A DNA stretch of 33,375 bases from Acidobacteriota bacterium (GTDB taxonomy: Bacteria > Acidobacteriota > Thermoanaerobaculia > Multivoradales > Multivoraceae): positions 1 through 33,375 of the forward strand of contig QQVD01000035.1 in NCBI GenBank assembly GCA_003388555.1, in the 5' to 3' direction. The notes beneath the pieces are model-generated. The model worked only from the letters and a program-made list of their open reading frames with translations, had not been told where the DNA came from and did no database searches. This document shows positions 21,251 to 33,375 of the stretch, in pieces. Numbering within the stretch: the first letter of the stretch is position 1; each line of letters starts with the position of its first letter. The translations under genes were made by a program, and so were the position numbers.

Positions 21251-21452
21251 CGCGCCGGCCGGCGGTACGCTCCGGGTCGAAACGACCCCCAGCGTCCCCT
21301 CCATAGCCCCTCTGGTCGGGGTGCGAGGGAAGCGCGCCTGCGTTGGATCGTGTTCCATTGACTGCCGCACGCGGTCTCAACGGTTGTCTGGGAGGCGGGC
21401 GCTGGGTCGCTCGCGTCGCAACCCGAGAACCCGTGATCGCGGAGGCAGCGAG

Positions 21453-23498
21453 ATGACGACATCGCAATACGAACGGATCGCCGGCTGCGCCAGTCGGCGG
21501 AGCACCTGGGGATCCCGGTTCCGAGGGTCCTCGAGTCGAGGTCGGTCCACCCACCGGGCGACGGTGGCCTGGAACATCCTGTGCGCCGGACTTCTGCTGC
21601 TCGGCGGCGCGGTGAGCGCCTCGGCGAGTGATCGCGGTGGACCGAGCACGATCAAGGTCGACGAGGATCTGCTGATCACCGTCGAGGAGGCGGGTCAGGA
21701 CGTCGGCGTGGTCGAGCGTTCGCAGGGTGAGGACGGCGCCGTCAGCGTGACCTGGGACACCGCTGACGGCAGTGCCCTGAGCGGCGAGGACTACGTCGCC
21801 TCCAGCGGCAGCCTCGAGTGGGCCGATGGCGACGGCAGCAACCGCAACGTCATCCTGCAGCTGGTCGACGACGGCGCGCCCGAGGGCGATGAGAGCTTCT
21901 CCTTCCGGCTGACGTCGGTCACCGGCAACGCCGTGATCGATCCGGAACGCGACCAGACGGAGGTCCGCATCCTGGCGAACGACGGCGGTGGCGGTGGCGG
22001 CGGAGGAGGAGGCGGCGGCGGCGGCGGTGACGCCGGGGTGCTGAAGTTCGACGACGACGTGTTCTTCACCGCCGAGGGTGCCGCGCTGGCGGTGATCTCG
22101 GTGGAACGTTCGCAGGGCGAGAGCGGTGAGGTCAGCGTCACCTACTCGACCTCGGACGGCAGCGCGACGGCTCCCGGAGACTACGGCGCGACCGGCGGCA
22201 CCCTGACCTGGCCGGACGGCGACGGCGGCACCAGGACCTTCACCATCGAGATCGTCGACGACGACGAAGGCGAGGGCACCGAGACGGTGAACCTGCTGCT
22301 CTCCAGTCCGACCGGCGGCGCCGGTCTCGATCCCGAGCGCTTCGAGGCCGAGCTGCGCATCGCCGACAACGACGGCGGCGGCGGAGGAGGCGGCGGGGGC
22401 GGTGGCGGCGGCGACGCCGGGGTGCTGAAGTTCGACCAGCGCACCTTCACCACCCTCGAGGGCTCCGCGGTCGCGGTGATCACCGTCGAGCGTTCGCAGG
22501 GCGAGAGCGGCGCGGTCACGGTGGAGTACTCCACCAGCGACGGCACCGCCACCGCGCCGGACGACTACCAGGCGACGGGTGGTGTGCTCGAGTGGGCCTC
22601 CGGCGACGGCTCGATCAAGACGTTCACGGTGCCGATCGTGCCCGACGGGATCGACGAGGGCACCGAGACGGTGCTGCTCGAGCTGGCCGCGGCGACAGGA
22701 GGCGCCACCATCGATCCGGTCCGCGGCTCGGCGGTGCTCAACATCCTCGACGACGACGATGCGCCGATCGGCGGCGGCTCGCCAGGTGAGCTGAAGTTCT
22801 CGATGTCGGGCTTCCAGGTCACCGAGTCGGGAGGTCAGGCGACGATCGTCGTCGAGCGCTCGCGCGGCGGCAACGGCGTGGTGACCGTCGACTACGACAC
22901 CGTGCCGGTCAGCGCCACGGCCGACGTCGACTACGGATCGACCAGCGGTACGCTCTCCTGGGGCGATCAGGACGAGAGCGATCGCACCTTCACGGTGCCC
23001 ATCTTCGACGACTCCGAGCAGGAGGGCAGCGAGGTGGTGCAGCTGGTGCTGTCGAACCCGGGTGGCGGGGCCACCCTCGACGCCGAGCGGTCGGAAGTGC
23101 CGTTGACCCTGCTCGACGACGATGCGTCGACCCAGGCCACCTGCGTGCCGAGTGCGACCACCCTCTGCCTGCAGCAGGGCCGCTTCCAGGCGACGATCGT
23201 CTACCGCACCGGGCAGGGGACGAGCGGTCGGGGCCAGGCGGTGCCACTGTCCGAGTCCTCGGGCCTCTTCTGGTTCTTCGGTGCCGACAACATCGAGATG
23301 CTGCTCAAGGCGCTCGACGGCTGCCAGGTGCCGGGTCTCGAGGCCTACTGGGTGTTCTATGCCGCGACGACCGACGTCGACTTCACTCTCCGGGTGACCG
23401 ACCTGGCGACCGGCCTGTCGAAGGAGTACACCAACGTGCTGGGCACCACGGCAGCTCCGGTGCAGGACGTGTTCACCTTCGACGCCTGCAACCCCTGA
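21453..23498 (+). CDS. Secreted protein with four Calx-beta domains and a conserved C-terminal domain
   Basis: A 681-residue exported protein. The ATG at 21453 has GGAGG 7 bases upstream. The signal peptide has a long basic n-region of about 38 residues before ILCAGLLLLGGAVSASA. Four Calx-beta repeats follow (about 64-177, 195-307, 321-437, 445-559). Each has an ERSQGExGxVxVxYxTxDGxA core, a DYxxxxGxLxWxxGD block and an EGxExxxLxL end, which normally bind Ca2+. Runs of 15 and 13 glycines join repeats 1-2 and 2-3. Residues about 564-680 are a C-terminal domain (CLQQGRF, SGLFWFFGADNIEMLLKALDG, EAYWVFYAATTD, DFTLRV) shared with the gene at 25356-27077. It may act at the cell surface in adhesion or as a matrix protein. 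The sigma-factor gene begins 121 bases downstream. Confidence 0.9.
   Translation: MTTSQYERIAGCASRRSTWGSRFRGSSSRGRSTHRATVAWNILCAGLLLLGGAVSASASDRGGPSTIKVDEDLLITVEEAGQDVGVVERSQGEDGAVSVTWDTADGSALSGEDYVASSGSLEWADGDGSNRNVILQLVDDGAPEGDESFSFRLTSVTGNAVIDPERDQTEVRILANDGGGGGGGGGGGGGGGDAGVLKFDDDVFFTAEGAALAVISVERSQGESGEVSVTYSTSDGSATAPGDYGATGGTLTWPDGDGGTRTFTIEIVDDDEGEGTETVNLLLSSPTGGAGLDPERFEAELRIADNDGGGGGGGGGGGGGDAGVLKFDQRTFTTLEGSAVAVITVERSQGESGAVTVEYSTSDGTATAPDDYQATGGVLEWASGDGSIKTFTVPIVPDGIDEGTETVLLELAAATGGATIDPVRGSAVLNILDDDDAPIGGGSPGELKFSMSGFQVTESGGQATIVVERSRGGNGVVTVDYDTVPVSATADVDYGSTSGTLSWGDQDESDRTFTVPIFDDSEQEGSEVVQLVLSNPGGGATLDAERSEVPLTLLDDDASTQATCVPSATTLCLQQGRFQATIVYRTGQGTSGRGQAVPLSESSGLFWFFGADNIEMLLKALDGCQVPGLEAYWVFYAATTDVDFTLRVTDLATGLSKEYTNVLGTTAAPVQDVFTFDACNP
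21984..22028 (+). repeat. 15-glycine codon tract (linker 1)
   Basis: Fifteen consecutive GGN codons (mixed GGC, GGT and GGA) link Calx-beta domains 1 and 2. Mixed codons argue against pure slippage of a perfect microsatellite. A flexible spacer is the probable role. Confidence 0.9.
22374..22412 (+). repeat. 13-glycine codon tract (linker 2)
   Basis: Thirteen consecutive GGN codons link Calx-beta domains 2 and 3. The same DNDGGG...GGDAGVLKF surroundings as linker 1 show that domain plus linker was duplicated as a unit. Confidence 0.9.
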
Positions 23499-24529: not shown

Positions 24530-25354
24530 ATGAACGGCGAGCGACAGGAAGACGTCGGCCTCGACTGGGGCACCTCGACGAGCCTCGTGGGGATCTTCGA
24601 GCACAGCCATCTACCGGGAGAGTGCGCCGCTGACGCCGACTCCACGGCCGCTCGGCGCGATCTCGCGACGCGGCTCGAGGTCGACCCGCCGCCGCGCTGC
24701 CCGGCCTGCCTCGCGGAGCGCGGTATGCACCACACCTTCGAGCGCGCCGCGACCCCGTCGACGAGGTGGCTGCGCCGGCTCGGCGAGGAGCGTAAGGTCG
24801 CCCGCGTCGCCGAGCGGCTGCGCTCGGACCTCGCCGACACCGCAAGGCTGGGAATCCAGCTGGCGCCCGCAGGCGGGCCGGCGAGCGCCGCTCCTGCTGG
24901 CGCCCGGGCCGTGGCAGCCGAGCGGGGCAGACCTGCGCCGCGCCTCTGGGCGCCGCTCGCCGCCGCGGCGGCTCTGCTGCTGCTGGTCGGCCTGCTCGTC
25001 CCCCTGCTGATGGCGCCGCCGCGGCTCGGCGATCCGGCAGACGGCGACGTGCTGCGCAGCGCGGTGATCGAGGGCCTGGCGCCGGACGCCGAGCTCGCCG
25101 AGGCGCCGCTGGCGCTGCGCTGCGACGACGTACCGGGCGCGGCGGGCTATCGTTTCCGCATCGAGACCGGCGACGGGACCGTGGTCGTCGAGCAGACCAC
25201 CTCCTCGCCCAGGCTCGAGCTCGCCGAGCTGCGCGGTGCGCTGCGACCCTTCGTGCGCTACACGTGGAGCGTCGTGGCCGTCGCCGAGGACGGCGACGAG
25301 ATGGCGCGCAGCGCTCCGGTGCACTTCCTGATCGCCCCAGGTGGAGGATCGTGA
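24530..25354 (+). CDS. Single-pass membrane protein, probable anti-sigma factor
   Basis: A 274-residue protein with a GGGGAAG ribosome site before the ATG. Residues 1-135 would be cytoplasmic and include PRCPACLAERGMHH, a cysteine/histidine cluster that could bind zinc but does not match the classic HxxxCxxC anti-sigma motif. A membrane helix lies at about 143-163 (LAAAAALLLLVGLLVPLLM). The outer part (about 185-270) resembles a fibronectin-III-like sandwich (GAAGYRFRIETGDGTVVVEQ, FVRYTWSVVAVAEDG). Its place directly after an ECF sigma gene and 1 base before a secreted Calx-beta gene supports an anti-sigma or signal-relay role. The alternative is a plain membrane-anchored surface protein. Confidence 0.68.
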   Translation: MNGERQEDVGLDWGTSTSLVGIFEHSHLPGECAADADSTAARRDLATRLEVDPPPRCPACLAERGMHHTFERAATPSTRWLRRLGEERKVARVAERLRSDLADTARLGIQLAPAGGPASAAPAGARAVAAERGRPAPRLWAPLAAAAALLLLVGLLVPLLMAPPRLGDPADGDVLRSAVIEGLAPDAELAEAPLALRCDDVPGAAGYRFRIETGDGTVVVEQTTSSPRLELAELRGALRPFVRYTWSVVAVAEDGDEMARSAPVHFLIAPGGGS

Positions 25355-25355
25355 C

Positions 25356-27077
25356 GTGAGTCAGCTGCCGCGCTCCCGAGGGAGCATCTGCCGCCTGAGA
25401 ACCGCCGTCGGCGCCGCGACCCTGCTGGCGCTGGCGCTGCCTTCGGCATCGTCGGCCGGCGAGGACATCACTCTGCGCACCAACGACGTCGACGGCGCTC
25501 CGGGTCAGGTGGTGCGCATCGAGATCCGTACCTACTCGCCGCGCCCGGTCGGACAGGGCCAGATGTGCGTGCGTGCCGGTCGGCCGGGGGCGTTCCTGCT
25601 CGCTGCGCCGCGCGGCTCCGAGGCCGGCGGCAGCTCGCCTCGGTCCGCCACCCAGGCGTCGGTGCTGCTCAGCGGCGCCCCGTTCGCCGAGTTCCTCGGC
25701 GGGGTCGTCTACAGCGAGGAGGGGGACGTCTACGCCGAGTTCACGATGCGCGAGGTCAACGGTGTCCCCGAGCTCGTCGTCGAGTTCGATTCGCCCTCCG
25801 GCACCATCAACCAGAGCGACGGACCGCTGGCGCACCTCGACTTCCGGCTGCGCGACGATCTGCCGATCGACGACGAATGGGAGGTCGGCGTCGACCTGTC
25901 GGGTACCGAGATCTTCGGTCCTCTCGGCGAGCAGCTCGAGGTGCGGGTCGAGCCGGGCAGGCTGCGCATCCGGGAGGACGACGGCGGCGGCGACGGCGCC
26001 GGCAGCCTGCGGCTGACCCAGCGCACCTTCTCCGGACGCGAAGGCGGCCAGGCGGTGGTCACCGTCGAACGCTCCGGTGGCGACGACGGCGCGGTGTCGG
26101 TGGGCTACCGCACTGTCGACAGCAGCGCGGTCGCGCCCGGCGACTACCTGGCGGCGTCTGGCGAGCTGGTCTGGGGAGACGGTGACGACGGAGTGCGGTC
26201 GTTCTCGGTGCAGCTCGTCGCCGACGACGAGGTCGAGGGCAGCGAGACGGCGGCGCTGCAGCTGCTGGCCCCGACCGGTGGCGCGGTGCTCGATCCCTCG
26301 CTGTCCACCGCGGTCCTCTCGATTCTCGACGGGGCGCTGCCGCCGTCGCAGGAGCTGCGCTTCACCGGCGAGCCGACCCTCCGCTTCGTCGAGGGCGAGG
26401 GGCTCGCTGCGGTCGGGATCGAGCGCAGCGGCGATCTCAGTGGACCGGTGACGCTGAGCTACGCCAGCCAGGCCGGGTCGGCGCTGCCCGGCGTCGACTA
26501 CGAAGACAGCCGTGGGCAGGTGGGCTGGGCCAGCGGCGAAGGTGGCGTGCGCACGATCTCGGTGCCGCTGATCGACGACTTCCTGTTCGAGGGAACCGAG
26601 AGTCTGGTGGTCGAGGTGCAGCGCCGGATCGCGGGCGCGCTAGTGCGTTTCGGCGAGCGCGAGATCGAGATCGTCGACGACGACGCGCCGGGTGGCGGCG
26701 GATGCGAGCCGACCGAGCGCAGGCTCTGCCTGCAGGGTGGGCGCTTCCGCGTCGAGGCCACGTGGCGAGCGGCCGACGGGCGCGGTGAGGCCGCGACGGC
26801 CAACCGTCTCACCGACAGCTCGGGCACCTTCTGGTTCTTCTCCCCCGACAACGTCGAGATGCTGGTCAAGGTGCTCGACGGCTGCTCCGTGCCGGGGCAG
26901 GAGGCCTACTGGGTCTTCGTCGCCGCCACCACCGACCAGGACTTCACCCTCACCGTGCACGACACGCTGGCCGGAGTGCTGCAGGAGTACCGCAACCCGC
27001 TCGGCCGGCTCTCCGTGCCGATCCGCGATCTCGACACCTTCCGCACCTGCGGCAGCGCCGCGGTGGGCGGCGACTGA
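25356..27077 (+). CDS. Secreted protein: cohesin-like domain, two Calx-beta domains, conserved C-terminal domain
   Basis: A 573-residue exported protein. The GTG at 25356 is chosen because GGAGG lies 8 bases upstream and a signal peptide follows (MSQLPRSRGSICR, hydrophobic TLLALALPSASSA). The start lies 1 base beyond the stop of the membrane-protein gene, so translation is probably coupled. Residues 35-205 resemble a cohesin-type sandwich (GAPGQVVRIEIRTYSP, SDGPLAHLDFRLRDD). Two Calx-beta repeats follow (about 213-320 and 326-443). Residues about 450-565 are the same C-terminal domain as in the gene at 21453 (LCLQGGRFRV, SGTFWFFSPDNVEMLVKVLDG, EAYWVFVAATTD). It ends 3 bases before the convergent CHAT gene. 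Probably a surface or matrix protein controlled by the adjacent sigma factor. Confidence 0.87.
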   Translation: MSQLPRSRGSICRLRTAVGAATLLALALPSASSAGEDITLRTNDVDGAPGQVVRIEIRTYSPRPVGQGQMCVRAGRPGAFLLAAPRGSEAGGSSPRSATQASVLLSGAPFAEFLGGVVYSEEGDVYAEFTMREVNGVPELVVEFDSPSGTINQSDGPLAHLDFRLRDDLPIDDEWEVGVDLSGTEIFGPLGEQLEVRVEPGRLRIREDDGGGDGAGSLRLTQRTFSGREGGQAVVTVERSGGDDGAVSVGYRTVDSSAVAPGDYLAASGELVWGDGDDGVRSFSVQLVADDEVEGSETAALQLLAPTGGAVLDPSLSTAVLSILDGALPPSQELRFTGEPTLRFVEGEGLAAVGIERSGDLSGPVTLSYASQAGSALPGVDYEDSRGQVGWASGEGGVRTISVPLIDDFLFEGTESLVVEVQRRIAGALVRFGEREIEIVDDDAPGGGGCEPTERRLCLQGGRFRVEATWRAADGRGEAATANRLTDSSGTFWFFSPDNVEMLVKVLDGCSVPGQEAYWVFVAATTDQDFTLTVHDTLAGVLQEYRNPLGRLSVPIRDLDTFRTCGSAAVGGD

Positions 27078-27080
27078 CTC

Positions 27081-29849
27081 TCATCGCCGGTACACACCCC
27101 GCAGCCAGGCGAGGGCCGAGGCCAAGGCGAGGATCGCGGCGGCGGCCACCAGCAGAGTCGAGCCTTCGGCGACCCGGCGCCAGCCGGACCAGCCGACCGG
27201 CTCGATCACCGGCGCCTCGCCCAGGAGCACGAAGCCGGACCACAGGTGGGGTGCGCTCCAGCGCGGATCGCCGAGCAGCTCCAGCTTGGCGCGGCGCAGC
27301 GCCTCGGCGGCGTCGAGGCCGCGATCGAGCTGGTGGTAGAACTGCTGCATGAAGGTGGCCGTGTTGCGGTCGCCGACATCCCAGAGGCTGGCGACCACCG
27401 CGTCCGAGCCGGCCGCCAGGAAGCTCCCCACCAGCGTCTCCAGTCCCTGGCCGTCGATCTCGAGCCCGGACGCCGTGGAGCAGGCGCTGAGCACGGTGAG
27501 CTGGACCTTCAGCTCGAGGGAGGCGATCTGCCGCGGAGTCACCACCCCCGAGCCCGGGTTCCCGTCGGCCGGGGCGAGCTGCAGCGAGGAGGCCGCGCCG
27601 GCGCGGTCGTCGAAGGTCGTGTGGGTGGCCAGATGCAGGGCGCTGGCACCGCCCCCGACGGCTTCGCGCAGGGCGGCGAACGTGGCCGAGCCGCCGCGGA
27701 GGATCCGGTGTCGGCCGAGCCGCCGAGCCGCTGCGTCGAGCTCGCGAGCGCTGGCCGGCAGCGGCTCGCGCCCGGGACTGTCGACCTCGCCGACTCCCAC
27801 CAGCCGGTAGCGCGGCGGCTCGAGCCTCTCGTCGGGTGGATCGAGCAGACTCAGCGCCGAGGGCAGGTAGCGCACCGCGACTCTCTCGACCACGAGATCG
27901 CCCTGCAGCGCCGCGGGCCGCAGGAGCTCGAAGGGCACGTAGCGCAGAACGCCGTCCGCCGCGACGAGGATCTCCCGCGGCGTCCCGCGCCAGGACTCGT
28001 CCGGCAGCAGGCGCGACAGCTGGGTCACGTCGCCCGTGTCGACCGTGTTCCCCGCCGCCGCGGTGGCGCCGCGTCGCAGCCTGTCGTGCAGCCGCCTGGC
28101 GATGCGTTCGAGCTCCTCCCGGTCGCCGAGATCGCGGACGAAGAGCTCGTCCCGGGTCAGGGTGAAGGCGACCGAGCTCTGCTCGAGGGCGAAGATCTCC
28201 ACCAGCACCTGGTCCTCTTCGAGACGGCGTTGCAGCTCGCGGACCAGCTGTTCGGGACCGAGCTCCGCCGTGGCGTGCAACGCCACTCTGCCCAGCCGCT
28301 CGAGCAGCTGGCGCTGCTTGGCGCGCACCGTCCACAGGTAGGCCTCGGCGTACCCCGTGTCGACGACGGTGTGGCGCTCGTCCGCGCGTCGAAGCTCGGA
28401 CGGCGAGGCTCTCGACAGCAGTAGTGCGACCAGCTCCTCGAACACCGATCGCTGCTCGGCGACGGTGCGGGCATCGAGGGCAGTGCGGGCAGCGTCGGAC
28501 TGGGTACGATCGATCGCGGTCGCGGCGGAGCGCAGATGCTCGGCGGCCTCGTCCGGCCGTCCGTCGTCGAGCGCGAGGCGGCCTTCGAGTGCGTCGATCT
28601 GCCACAGAGCCTGGGTCAGCTGGGCCTCCCGGGCCAACCGCCGCGCGCGCTCCGCGGCGCGCCGCGCCGACTCGAGATCGCCGGCACTCCTCGCCAGCCG
28701 CGCCCGCTGCAGCAGCGCGTCGACCACCTGGAGGCGGTCGCCCAAAGACTCGGCCAGAGCGATCGCCCGGTCGAGCACCAGGGCGGCCTCGGCCGGCGCG
28801 CGGCGGTTCTGTGCCAGCACCCGGCCGCGGTTGATCAGCACGTTGAGCTCGCCGCCGAGGTCGCCGAGCTGGCGGAAGAGCCGTTCGGCCTCCTCCAGAC
28901 GCTCGAGAGCCGCTTCACTGTCGCCGAGGTTGCGCAGGATCACCGCCAGGTTCGCCTCGGCGAAGGCCCTCGACCTCTGCTCGAGACGCGGATCGCCGGC
29001 CACCCCGCGGAGCAGATCGGCGGCGTCCCGGTAGCGGCCGATCTGTTCGAGCAGGACGGCCCGATTGATCCGGGTGGTGGCGAGTTGCTCGTTGGCGGCG
29101 TCGTCGCCGGCCGACGCCATTGCGGAGAGCTCGTCGCCAGTGGCGCGTAGCAGCTCGTCGGCGGCCGAGAAGCGTCCCGCCGCCTGGTAGACGTTGCCGA
29201 GGTTCAGCGTCGTCTGCAGTGCCGAGAGGGGATCGCCCGAGTCACGATGCAGGCGCACGCTCTCGGCGAAGGCGGACTCCGCCGCTGCGAGCTGGGCGGC
29301 GGCGAGCCGCGCCAGCCCGAGGTTGTTCAGGGCGCGCGCCAGCCCGGACGACTCTCCCACTGTCCTCCACGCCTCCACCGCGGCGACGCACAGCTCTCCG
29401 GCACGCTGGGTGCGGCCGCTCTGGTTGGCGACGAAACAGGCGTTGTTGAGAGACGCGGCGCGTAGTTCGGCCTCGCGGGTCTCACCTGCCGCCTGCGCGA
29501 ACAGCTCCATCGCCGTCTCGAGATCTCCCTGCGAGTACGCGGAGAGGGCGCGCTCGTAGACGGCGTCGGCAGCGCCGGGGCCGGCGGCGCTGCCGTCCTG
29601 GGCCGAGACCGCGACGGTGGCGGTGGCGAGCCCAGCCAGCCAGGAGAAGAGGCCCGTGCGAAGCGTCAGGCGGAGCGCATCGGCGAGGCTCCCCGTACCG
29701 CGACGGACGTGATGTCGGGGGAGGATCGACTCCCGTTCCTCGCGCCCTCGGCGCGCGATCGCACTCCTCGCACCCGTTCGTCGGTCGCAGGGCCCTCGGC
29801 CCGGGCCTGGGGCGCTACGATCGCAGGCGCCATGAGCGGAAGCAGACAT
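27081..29849 (-). CDS. Secreted, membrane-anchored TPR-CHAT caspase-like protease
   Basis: A protein of about 922 residues if it starts at the ATG at 29849. That start puts about 60 basic residues before the signal-like segment GLFSWLAGLATATVAVSA and overlaps the divergent ferredoxin gene. A CTG at 29669 would give a neat signal peptide, so the start is open. Residues about 95-450 are TPR-like helix pairs (ARALNNLGLARLAAAQ, TTLNLGNVYQAAGRF, ANLAVILRNLGDSEAALERL). Residues about 610-880 form a CHAT domain with the catalytic pair intact: histidine in LHLATHTTF (His743) and cysteine in LSACSTASG (Cys790). SLWDVGDRNT and a family-typical PHLWSGFVLLG follow. A membrane helix at about 896-916 sits next to the C-terminus. 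Seen together this is a periplasm-facing, tethered protease. CHAT proteases usually have a specific substrate; the neighbouring Calx-beta proteins are candidates. Confidence 0.88.
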   Translation of the reverse strand: MSASAHGACDRSAPGPGRGPCDRRTGARSAIARRGREERESILPRHHVRRGTGSLADALRLTLRTGLFSWLAGLATATVAVSAQDGSAAGPGAADAVYERALSAYSQGDLETAMELFAQAAGETREAELRAASLNNACFVANQSGRTQRAGELCVAAVEAWRTVGESSGLARALNNLGLARLAAAQLAAAESAFAESVRLHRDSGDPLSALQTTLNLGNVYQAAGRFSAADELLRATGDELSAMASAGDDAANEQLATTRINRAVLLEQIGRYRDAADLLRGVAGDPRLEQRSRAFAEANLAVILRNLGDSEAALERLEEAERLFRQLGDLGGELNVLINRGRVLAQNRRAPAEAALVLDRAIALAESLGDRLQVVDALLQRARLARSAGDLESARRAAERARRLAREAQLTQALWQIDALEGRLALDDGRPDEAAEHLRSAATAIDRTQSDAARTALDARTVAEQRSVFEELVALLLSRASPSELRRADERHTVVDTGYAEAYLWTVRAKQRQLLERLGRVALHATAELGPEQLVRELQRRLEEDQVLVEIFALEQSSVAFTLTRDELFVRDLGDREELERIARRLHDRLRRGATAAAGNTVDTGDVTQLSRLLPDESWRGTPREILVAADGVLRYVPFELLRPAALQGDLVVERVAVRYLPSALSLLDPPDERLEPPRYRLVGVGEVDSPGREPLPASARELDAAARRLGRHRILRGGSATFAALREAVGGGASALHLATHTTFDDRAGAASSLQLAPADGNPGSGVVTPRQIASLELKVQLTVLSACSTASGLEIDGQGLETLVGSFLAAGSDAVVASLWDVGDRNTATFMQQFYHQLDRGLDAAEALRRAKLELLGDPRWSAPHLWSGFVLLGEAPVIEPVGWSGWRRVAEGSTLLVAAAAILALASALAWLRGVYRR

Positions 29850-30365
29850 CCGGAGGCCGATCCTGTCACCGAGGGCGTGCCGCGGCGGCGCTCGCCATGG
29901 GAGGAGGAGCTCGCCGGCCTGCCGCCGAATCTCGCCGCCGAGCGCAAGGCGCAGCTGATCGGTGTCGCCAACGCGCGGCGCCACATCTTCCTGTGCGCTG
30001 ACCCGACGAAGCCGAAGTGCGCGCCGGCGGAGCGCGGGCGGGTGGCCTGGAAGTACCTCAAGGGCCGTCTCGCCGAGCTCGGGCTGCAGGACGACGGCTC
30101 GATCCTGCGCACCCGCGCCGACTGCCTGCGCATCTGCGCCGACGGCCCGATCGCCGTGGTGTACCCGGAAGGCGTCTGGTACCGCCGCTGCGATCCGCCG
30201 GTGCTCGAGCGCATCGTGCAGGAGCATCTGCTCGGCGGCCGCGTCGTCGAGGAGCACCGCCTGACCACCCGCGAGCTCGCCGGCGGCGTCGTATCACCGC
30301 GGTCGCCCCATTCGGATCTCGAGTCTTCCGGGCCGGAAGGGGCCGCCTCCGGGCCGGATCGCTGA
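29832..30365 (+). CDS. Thioredoxin-like [2Fe-2S] ferredoxin domain protein
   Basis: A 177-residue protein of the thioredoxin-fold [2Fe-2S] ferredoxin group (COG3411-like). The ATG at 29832 gives a start compatible with the family; the frame extends upstream without support. Four cysteines are in the expected places: CADPTKPKC (Cys55, Cys63) and CLRIC (Cys98, Cys102), followed by GPIAVVYPEGVWY. The first 35 and last 40 residues are disordered extensions. It should be a cytoplasmic electron carrier. Its start overlaps the proposed 5' end of the divergent CHAT gene, which is one reason to doubt that start. Confidence 0.9.
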   Translation: MSGSRHPEADPVTEGVPRRRSPWEEELAGLPPNLAAERKAQLIGVANARRHIFLCADPTKPKCAPAERGRVAWKYLKGRLAELGLQDDGSILRTRADCLRICADGPIAVVYPEGVWYRRCDPPVLERIVQEHLLGGRVVEEHRLTTRELAGGVVSPRSPHSDLESSGPEGAASGPDR

Positions 30366-30936: not shown

Positions 30937-32262
30937 TCATCCGCCCAGCCGGCCGCCCGAGTAGATCGCGGTCCGCGGGTTGTACGCCTGCCAGTCGAAC
31001 CAGTAGTCCTTGAGCACCCTCAGCCGCTCGAGCCGCCGGCCGGCCAGCGGCCCCGAGATCGCTTCGCCCGAGAACGACCAGGTGCTGCCGGTCTGCGCGT
31101 CGATCAGCGTCCCGCCGGCCCTCCACGGGGTGGCTTCGGGAGAGTCCCGCGCCGCATGCGGCATCCCTTCGAGAGGGGCAGTCGTCGGCGGCTCGATCGG
31201 TTCGGCGCCGCTCAGAGCACGATCATCGGCTGGGCGCACGAAGTCCAGCACCCGATCGTCCAGTCGGCGCGAGAAGCCGCGCACCGAGAGCCCGTCCTCG
31301 GCGACCCACAGCAGCAGCGGCTCGCCCGAGAGGGTGTCGCCGACCGGCGTCTGTTCGGCGAGCAGCTCGAGCGGATAGGCCTTGGCGCTGCCCCCCAGCT
31401 CGACGCCGACGATCAGTGCTTCTTCCGGGAGGGCGGTGCCGGCCGCCAGGCCGAGGGTGGGGAACGATCCGCGGCTGCCGGCGCTGTCGTCGCCGGCCTC
31501 GAGGCCGAGCCGGTAGGAATCGTGGTGCTGGGGATCGCCGGCCAGGACCTGGGTGCGCGGATGCTCGCGTCGCCAGATCGCGAAGCCGACTTCGTCCCAG
31601 GGCAGCGGCTCGAGCCGTTTTCCGGCCAGCGGCCCTCGGATCGCCTCGCCGGTGACCTGCTGCCACCAGGTACCGGTCTGGCGGTCGGCCATGACGAAGT
31701 TCTGGTTGTTGATCCCGACCAGCTGGAAGGTGAGCTCGATGCCGTCGACCGACGACCTCCACACCAGACCGGTGTGGCAGAGCGTTCAGTAGGTGACGAC
31801 GAAGGGCTCGTCCGAGAGCCGGTCGTTGACGATGTGGTGGTAGGCGACGATCCCCACCGGATAGGCCTTCGACTCGTCGCCCAGTGAGACTCCGAGAACC
31901 AGGTCGTGCGGGCTGAGGAAGTCGGCCTGGTGGGCGGCGACGAAGCCCGGGTCGGGAAGCGGCGCGAACATCTTCTCGAACACGTTGACCCGCGCCGCGT
32001 AGGTGCCGAGGCCGAGCACCGCGACCGGGATCAGGAGCGCAGCCCGGGCGGCGCGGTTCTCGAGGCGGAAGAAGGATCGCGCCGCGAGCACCAGGCCCAG
32101 AGCCAGCAGGATCGCGGTGATCGCCGGGTTCCAGGTGACCAGCAGATGCACCAGTCTGATCTCGCCTGCGCTCTGGGTGCGCGACGGTTCGAGCAGGAGC
32201 ACGGGTAGCGCGGCGCAGATCGCCGCGATCAGGCTCAGGATGTAGGGAATCGCGTGGAACAC
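30937..32262 (-). CDS. Membrane-anchored DUF3179 protein, probable selenoprotein (in-frame UGA)
   Basis: One 441-residue frame if the UGA at 31786-31788 is read as selenocysteine (residue 159). Residues 1-92 give three membrane helices (YILSLIAAICAALPVLLL, ITAILLALGLVLAA, AALLIPVAVLGLGTYAA). DUF3179 follows: LGVSLGDESKAYPVGIVAYH, then VVTY-Sec-TLCHTG, where family members have a CxxC in VTYCPLC. DRQTGTWWQQVTGEAIRGPL then continues in the same frame. A hairpin with the loop GGUCU starts 8 bases after the UGA. The part after the UGA has no start codon with a ribosome site, so it is not a separate gene. Residues about 283-441 repeat the domain (IVGVELGGSAKAYPL, GEAISGPLAG) without the redox motif. 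The GTG at 32262 lacks a visible ribosome site. It probably faces the periplasm as a thiol/selenol redox protein. The alternative is a pseudogene broken at exactly this codon. Confidence 0.85.
31759..31777 (-). promoter_or_regulatory. Bacterial SECIS-like hairpin
   Basis: Read on the minus strand, the element is CCACACC-GGUCU-GGUGUGG: seven perfect base pairs and a 5-base loop, beginning 8 bases after the UGA. The loop begins at base 16 after the UGA. Known bacterial SECIS elements place the SelB-binding apical loop about 16-37 bases downstream, and GGUCU is the loop sequence in E. coli fdhF. The bulged U of fdhF is absent. The element lies within coding sequence, as is normal in bacteria. 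Confidence 0.85.
31786..31788 (-). other. In-frame UGA, candidate selenocysteine codon
   Basis: The codon follows GTC GTC ACC TAC and precedes ACG CTC TGC CAC. It takes the place of the first cysteine of the DUF3179 CxxC pair, and the second cysteine (TGC) is kept. The reading frame is the same on both sides, and the protein family continues without a gap. Confidence 0.85.
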
Positions 32263-32932: not shown

Positions 32933-33375
32933 TCACTTCCACGACCAGGTGCTGAGCCCGGTCTCCTGGTGGCGGCCGTACTCGTAGAAGCCCGGCGGGC
33001 CGCCCCATTCGGGCTCGGCCTCGTACTTGCGGATGTGAACCCTCGCGGTGGCGGCCGGGCCGATGCGCACCTCGAGCGTGCGACCGAACCGATCGCGGAT
33101 GCGGAAGGCACCCGGGTTCTCGATCGAACCGTCGGGGAGGAAGACGGCGCCGATGGTGCCGTCGGCGAGAACGCTCAGCCCGTCGGTCTGGCTGGTCGGA
33201 TCGTCGTTGCCGTTGCCGCCGCCGTTGCCACCGCCGTTGCCGCCACCGCCGTTGCCGCCACCGCCGTTGCCGCCGCCGTTGCCGCCACCGCCGTTGCCGC
33301 CACCGCCGTTGCCGCCGCCGTTGCCGCCACCGCCGTTGCCGCCGCCGCCGTTGCCGCCGCCGTTGCCGCCACCGC
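32933..33375 (-). CDS. GspH/FimT-like pseudopilin C-terminus with Gly-Asn repeats (5' end outside window)
   Basis: The last 146 codons of a leftward gene whose start lies beyond the window. The stop TGA is at 32933-32935. After about 56 residues of glycine-asparagine repeats the protein reads DGLSVLADGTIGAVFLPDGS, then FRIRDRFGRTLEVRIG and ends YGRHQETGLSTWSWK. The FLPDGS...FRIRD..GRTLEVRI pattern is that of the C-terminal beta-sheet of GspH/FimT minor pseudopilins. The close coupling to the GspG-like gene supports this. A long Gly/Asn insert is unusual for the family. The N-terminal prepilin motif cannot be seen here. The alanine-rich reading of the same repeat in another frame is a shadow. 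Confidence 0.75.
   Translation of the reverse strand, partial: GGGNGGGNGGGGNGGGGNGGGNGGGGNGGGGNGGGNGGGGNGGGGNGGGNGGGNGNDDPTSQTDGLSVLADGTIGAVFLPDGSIENPGAFRIRDRFGRTLEVRIGPAATARVHIRKYEAEPEWGGPPGFYEYGRHQETGLSTWSWK
33206..33375 (-). repeat. Gly-Asn codon repeat with 42-base higher-order period
   Basis: AAC codons are separated by runs of GGN codons. Counting from the C-terminal side, the run lengths are 1, 3, 3, 4, 4, 3, 4, 4, 3, 4, 4, 3 and then at least 4 at the window edge. The recurring 3-4-4 pattern gives a 14-residue (42-base) unit, GGGGNGGGGNGGGN. The tract runs off the window. Confidence 0.9.

Follow-up and report, generated by a model that had tools for sequence, protein, structure and literature searches.

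A 33,375-nucleotide stretch of DNA from an Acidobacteriota bacterium (contig QQVD01000035.1 of assembly GCA_003388555.1; hereafter the window) carries a gene of the DUF3179 family (PF11376) whose reading frame is interrupted by one UGA codon. This raises the question of whether the codon ends translation or is read as selenocysteine (Sec), and of what a Sec residue would do in a protein family of unknown function.

The interrupted gene and the Sec machinery of its genome

The gene occupies positions 30937-32262 of the minus strand (the original prediction gave no strand), with the interrupting codon at 31786-31788, where the plus strand shows TCA. Read from a GTG at 32262, assumed to be the start, to the UGA stop at 30937-30939, the frame has stops only at codon 159 (UGA) and at its end, and would encode 441 amino acids with Sec as residue 159. 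The assumed start leaves 158 residues ahead of the motif, and about 155-190 precede it in most clade relatives. The same family was expected on both sides of the interruption, and this was confirmed by a score of 230.9 bits for the read-through product against PF11376 (Pfam gathering cut-off 27; best stretch, residues 104-431) and of 139.2 bits for the ORF downstream of the UGA taken alone. The PF11376 motif alignment likewise agrees that UGA occupies the position of the leading Cys in the family's CxxC motif (TY-UGA-TLCHTG); the second position of the resulting UxxC is Cys162 (31777-31779, minus strand), a residue often missing from other Sec-forms. The locus appears as two separate ORFs, and any gene caller that treats UGA as a stop would truncate or divide the gene, in line with its anticipated annotation as two false genes. 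No match to the window protein was found in NCBIfam at an E-value of 1, or by sequence search among solved structures at E-values up to 1, and an Rfam scan of the whole window at gathering thresholds gave no match.

In bacteria, Sec is inserted when SelB with Sec-tRNA binds a SECIS hairpin at the ribosome. A search of the genome for selA, selB, selC, and selD had been proposed, their absence counting against Sec, and all four genes were found in this draft assembly (6.8 Mb, 74 contigs, 98.8% complete): tRNA-Sec at 70.1 bits (against a cut-off of 47; ARAGORN also identifies it, as tRNA-SeC (tca)), SelB at 315 bits (cut-off 242; E 8.2e-94), SelA at 422 bits (cut-off 268), and SelD at 228 bits (cut-off 125). 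A formate dehydrogenase was also considered as a second selenoprotein of the genome and rejected, with nothing over the cut-off and no candidate with an inner stop.

In the window gene, SelB and Sec-tRNA would bind the hairpin CCACACC-GGUCU-GGUGUGG (31759-31777, minus strand; loop, 31766-31770), with insertion of Sec at residue 159. Its sequence and position are as originally described: it begins 8 bases 3' of the UGA, comprises 7 bp (-11.0 kcal/mol for the hairpin alone), and has its loop starting at base 16, that is, 15 nt after the UGA codon. The claimed identity with the loop of the Escherichia coli fdhF SECIS also holds, as GGUCU is present in fdhF of strain K-12. The bSECIS rule given in the available portion of PMC13188914 describes a loop of 3-9 nt with G in the first two places, a stem of 4-16 bp, and a stability of -7.5 kcal/mol or lower, and the loop, stem length, and stability of the window-gene hairpin fall within all of these. 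The spacing between UGA and loop is quoted there as 16-37 nt, with the counting convention unstated in that portion; if the same convention applies, the 15 nt of the window gene (loop at base 16) would fall one short of this range (PMC13188914). No SECIS-like hairpin was found behind the terminal UGA of the gene. On its own, the window-gene hairpin is only mildly unusual and not significant: an equally stable one occurs at 37 of the 572 TGA triplets on both strands of the window and in 15% of 300 trials of synonymous-codon resampling of the gene, and the 54-nt fold behind the UGA gives z = -1.39.

Distribution of the UGA codon and constraint on its hairpin

We surveyed 297 Acidobacteriota genomes, drawn evenly from a larger group and including the window genome. 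PF11376 matches were found in 91 of them, and 60 matches, the window gene included, contain one inner TGA (46 genomes). In 59 of these 60, which come from many families, the TGA falls exactly at the motif codon; the lone exception (L115) is a frameshifted copy. Nine named matches from genome_contigs gave the same picture, as all eight that contain the motif have TGA there, including one from Nannocystis pusilla (Myxococcota), and the ninth (L058) starts behind the motif. With duplicates and second hits still included, the motif column comprised 74 TGA, 63 Cys, and 15 other-codon rows. The suggested search for other family members that share the UGA column and have a hairpin downstream showed them to be common.

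The occurrence of TGA also follows that of SelB. In 44 of the 46 TGA genomes, the best SelB match has an E-value of 5.2e-90 or better, and on these E-values the 44 were taken as over the SelB cut-off; over the whole sample, SelB exceeds the cut-off in 194 of 297 genomes, namely 44 of 46 TGA genomes compared with 150 of 251 others (Fisher 3.5e-7, kinship ignored). The TGA genomes without a strong SelB match are G080 and G290, which are 75% and 65% complete, respectively.

Several loci were seen to depart from the usual arrangement. A further DUF3179 gene of the window genome (L119, G000:C9:7349-8233) has Cys instead of Sec (CTLCGSM). Three genomes of family code f66 carry divergent DUF3179 genes (L109-L111) of about 580 residues, with UGA in a UENC motif. 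In N. pusilla (L057:4001-5771), the gene start is present in two tandem copies, each containing UGA and a stretch that resembles the hairpin, and copy 1 ends right behind that stretch, as though a partial duplication had truncated it.

Six duplicates were dropped before hairpins were counted, copy 1 of L057 is absent from the resampling set, and one contig, present as L051 and L089, enters twice in the hairpin, resampling, and GGU-background counts and once in the counts of +3 residues and of the 26 clade members. A SECIS-like hairpin of -7.5 kcal/mol or lower follows the motif codon in 58 of 68 UGA rows, compared with 6 of 63 Cys rows, leaving 10 of the 68 UGA rows without such a hairpin under the perfect-stem rule. 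In synonymous resampling, p 0.05 was reached by 21 of 67 UGA rows compared with 2 of 63 Cys rows.

Two SECIS layouts can be distinguished among the UGA rows, one nearly frozen and seen in the clade of the window gene, the other with compensatory changes. In the window clade, the loop starts 15 or 16 nt after the UGA in 24 of 26 aligned rows; it is shifted to 20 nt in L059. The loop Gly codon is GGU in 25 of the 26 Sec members, compared with 11.5% GGU among Gly codons in the same frame (HTGLVW rows), and the His codon is CAC in 26 of 26 HTGLVW rows, with one contig counted twice. L072 has GGC for the loop Gly and a weaker hairpin under the perfect-stem rule. In most UGA rows outside the window clade, the loop starts 20-22 nt after the UGA. 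Among 28 UGA rows selected for this second layout (alignment A2), 99.5% of cells pair, with two-sided changes in six of seven pairs; among all 40 UGA rows outside the window clade, unselected, 90.4% of cells pair, with two-sided changes in seven of seven pairs, compared with at most 47% pairing in a control in which the partner was slid by 1 to 3 columns. As judged from these alignments, the hairpin is maintained by selection in the relatives.

The relationships within the family were assessed with a tree of 95 rows, built by a quick method with SH-aLRT as the only support measure and no bootstrap, with one copy from L057 excluded, as well as 35 named loci that were near-copies of others, truncated, or divergent. 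The window gene belongs to a clade of 32 rows (26 Sec, 6 Cys; support 100), with all six Cys rows grouped in a single branch (support 99). These six have TGC where the others have UGA, and GGU in none of six. In their genomes (G094, G163, G155, G233, G171, and G130), the best matches to the SelB model range from 4.4e-56 to 1.5e-25; we read these genomes as lacking SelB, since the values are comparable to those (3e-53 and 4e-53) of two frames in the window genome, each of 399 residues, which we take to be elongation factors. Two genomes of the same family code as the Cys genomes, f19, keep both the UGA and a strong SelB match (G084 and G210). As the Cys members without strong SelB have TGC together with a decayed hairpin, the SECIS constraint can be separated from the protein constraint, and the phylum offers a natural experiment on the two.

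These comparisons bear on whether the UGA could have another meaning. A true stop, through a nonsense mutation that left a pseudogene or through a sequencing error, would suit a draft genome in 74 contigs and a window-gene hairpin that alone lies within chance, but it is a highly improbable explanation of a codon that is TGA in nearly every TGA-bearing match across many families, with a frame behind it that still reaches 139 bits to DUF3179 and with hairpin codons frozen among the clade's UGA genes but not among its six Cys relatives. Decoding of the UGA as a different amino acid (Cys, Trp, or Gly), whether through code reassignment or through near-cognate read-through, could draw on Cys being the commonest alternative at the column, but is scarcely credible in a genome with the whole Sec pathway, for a gene whose own stop is a UGA with no SECIS-like hairpin behind it, and in a clade whose six members without a strong SelB match have TGC. 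With the Sec machinery complete, the UGA at a conserved Cys column, and hairpins in the UGA homologues, the original reading stands, and the window gene very probably encodes a DUF3179-family selenoprotein in which residue 159 is Sec. The case is strong because of the comparison, in which 59 of 60 TGA-bearing matches share the codon, and not because of the lone hairpin.

The gene neighbourhood was examined as a source of clues to the substrate. Among the 26 Sec rows of the window clade (one contig counted twice), no conserved neighbour gene was found; the ORF recurring in 10 of them is antisense over the gene itself, and one other ORF cluster reached 3 loci. When 89 loci of 3200 bases or more were compared, the most populous neighbour cluster had 10 loci, sigma-factor-like by eye and at varied places and strands. 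In the absence of a conserved partner, the neighbour genes give no substrate clue. The window itself has a [2Fe-2S] ferredoxin gene (PF00111; 30560-30880, plus strand), convergent with the selenoprotein gene and 56 bases from its stop. Elsewhere in the window, the products of 21321-23498 and 25341-27077 (both plus strand) have C-terminal stretches much alike by eye (FWFF..DN.EML.K.LDGC..PG.EAYWVF), with Calx-beta repeats found in a scan of the latter protein, 27081-30257 (minus strand) encodes a CHAT-domain protein with TPR repeats, and 33200-33375 holds a run of GCC/GTT-rich short repeats next to a pilin-like gene.

Predicted architecture and possible role of Sec159

An AlphaFold2 model based on 68 aligned sequences (pLDDT 89.7) contains three long helices within residues 2-91, followed by two similar domains. 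The helices (residues 2-23, 32-66, and 70-91; 31978-32262, minus strand) may anchor the protein in the membrane, and the soluble part would then lie outside the cytoplasm, because the N-termini of several relatives are signal-peptide-like or lipoprotein-like by eye and because an Arg-rich stretch at about residues 61-73 lies between the second and third hydrophobic segments. The first domain, repeat 1 (residues 104-245; 31528-31953, minus strand), has a predicted Rieske-like fold and holds Sec159 and the conserved Asp193 (31684-31686). Repeat 2 (residues 270-436; 30955-31455, minus strand) is homologous to repeat 1 (hhalign probability 99.8%, E 1.4e-27) and lacks Sec/Cys.

Structural comparison of the whole model returned Rieske domains, recognized from entry titles or from general knowledge, in 43 of the 50 rows listed, on either repeat, and the other seven match residues 1-98 only. 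Repeat 1 modelled alone (pLDDT 95.8) gave Rieske entries in 50 of 50 rows listed in the VIA comparison, with a best Z of 8.6 (91 residues, 2.8 Angstrom) and a Z of 6.6 at rank 50; the usual values for models without a clear match are 7 to 8 for the best Z and 4 to 5 at rank 50. The best E-value for Rieske likeness in Foldseek was 0.085. In hhalign comparisons with 29 Rieske segments, repeat 2 reached E 0.0022 (probability 13%) and repeat 1 E 0.21. The pooled repeats scored 16.0 against a Rieske profile, with 1 of 40 column shuffles higher; since column shuffles do as well, the profile comparison gives no support. No PF00355 match to the window protein was found at an E-value of 0.01, and the C-x-H ... 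C-x-x-H ligand pattern of the Rieske [2Fe-2S] cluster is absent from the window protein and from the repeat-1 consensus. Based on these models, a Rieske-like fold of the DUF3179 repeats is likely. From the aligned ranges and the positions of the Rieske ligands, the Sec/Cys of DUF3179 presumably lies ahead of the Rieske cluster loops. In a gap-free alignment by eye, Asp193-x-x-Thr196 falls on the Rieske C-x-x-H loop.

The residues around the motif differ between the two forms. The +3 position is Cys in 60 of 63 Cys-forms compared with 38 of 67 Sec-forms, the other 29 Sec-forms having A (13), T (8), V (2), S (2), E (2), I (1), or K (1), and this frequent loss makes the partner Cys look dispensable once Sec is present. 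Every row of alignments A1 and A5 was chosen for having Cys or Sec at the motif, and the invariance of that column in them follows from this choice and is not evidence; Asp193 is invariant in both, and His142, Asp147, and Asp193 are conserved in at least 90% of 68 aligned rows. In ten further genes (L148, L150-L153, L156-L158, L160, and L161) and one weak match (L168), the Cys/Sec column is Asn, Ser, His, Asp, or Gly, with the second Cys kept in 6 of the 10. Some DUF3179 branches would therefore work, if at all, without Cys/Sec159, and the ten genes perhaps represent a branch of another function.

We propose that the two tandem Rieske-like domains serve as a scaffold without Rieske cluster ligands, on which the selenol of repeat 1 would be a redox centre or a metal ligand, assisted in the window clade by Cys162 three residues on. 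An extracytoplasmic redox role of the DUF3179 selenoprotein is the reading towards which we lean slightly. A fuller version is offered tentatively, in which DUF3179 would be a tandem Rieske fold that lost its iron-sulfur ligands and gained a new selenol/thiol centre, acting as an extracytoplasmic redox enzyme whose Sec could work without the partner Cys retained by Cys-forms. A rather unlikely alternative, yet one to be weighed, is that Sec159 acts mainly as a metal or haem ligand on the Rieske-like scaffold, with no selenol chemistry. It would be consistent with the predicted fold, the +3 Cys gone from 29 of 67 Sec-forms, the conservation of His142, Asp147, and Asp193, and the Asn, Asp, or His found at the column in other DUF3179 genes, but the Rieske ligand pattern is missing, and most selenoproteins known so far are believed to have redox functions, as stated in the available portion of PMC9312934. 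Two leads open the role of Sec to experiment: a predicted fold for an uncharacterized family, and the disappearance of the second Cys from many Sec-forms.

Comparison with known systems

The original prediction hinted that DUF3179 might be new as a selenoprotein family, and this did not stand. DUF3179 is already tabulated as a selenoprotein with UxxC/T in the available portions of two reviews, of 2022 and 2026, where it is credited to Zhang and Gladyshev (2007), the organism being a symbiont of Olavius algarvensis (PMC9312934, PMC13188914). A new family is thereby ruled out, and the window gene adds a member and not a family. Acidobacteria are credited with 3 selenoprotein families in a table of PMC1794560, a source available in part, and the accessible part of a further selenoprotein paper does not mention DUF3179 (PMC12013277). 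In the available portions of the two reviews there is no phylum census and no mention of two SECIS layouts, of a Cys reversion, or of the fold lead, and the word Rieske is absent from their main text (PMC9312934, PMC13188914). The spread of the family through the phylum and its likely Rieske-like fold are new clues to the function of DUF3179.

The window protein shares its Pfam family and the position of Sec, first in UxxC, with the DUF3179 selenoprotein as described in the available portions of the reviews; it differs in coming from Acidobacteriota and in its predicted membrane anchor, and the wider sample adds two SECIS layouts and, in addition to the reported C/T, the residues A, V, S, E, I, and K at +3 (PMC9312934, PMC13188914). 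Compared with the E. coli fdhF SECIS, the window gene likewise has a hairpin just after the UGA and the loop sequence GGUCU, but this sequence starts 18 nt after the UGA in fdhF and 15 nt after it in the window gene, and the proteins are unrelated. With Rieske ferredoxins and NirD, the small subunit of nitrite reductase, both DUF3179 repeats share a predicted fold, and the alignments of repeat 1 with the 25 top-ranked entries, which are small, cover 90-98 residues at 2.5-3.7 Angstrom; in contrast to Rieske domains, the DUF3179 protein lacks the C-x-H...C-x-x-H ligands and a PF00355 match, and is tandemly duplicated.
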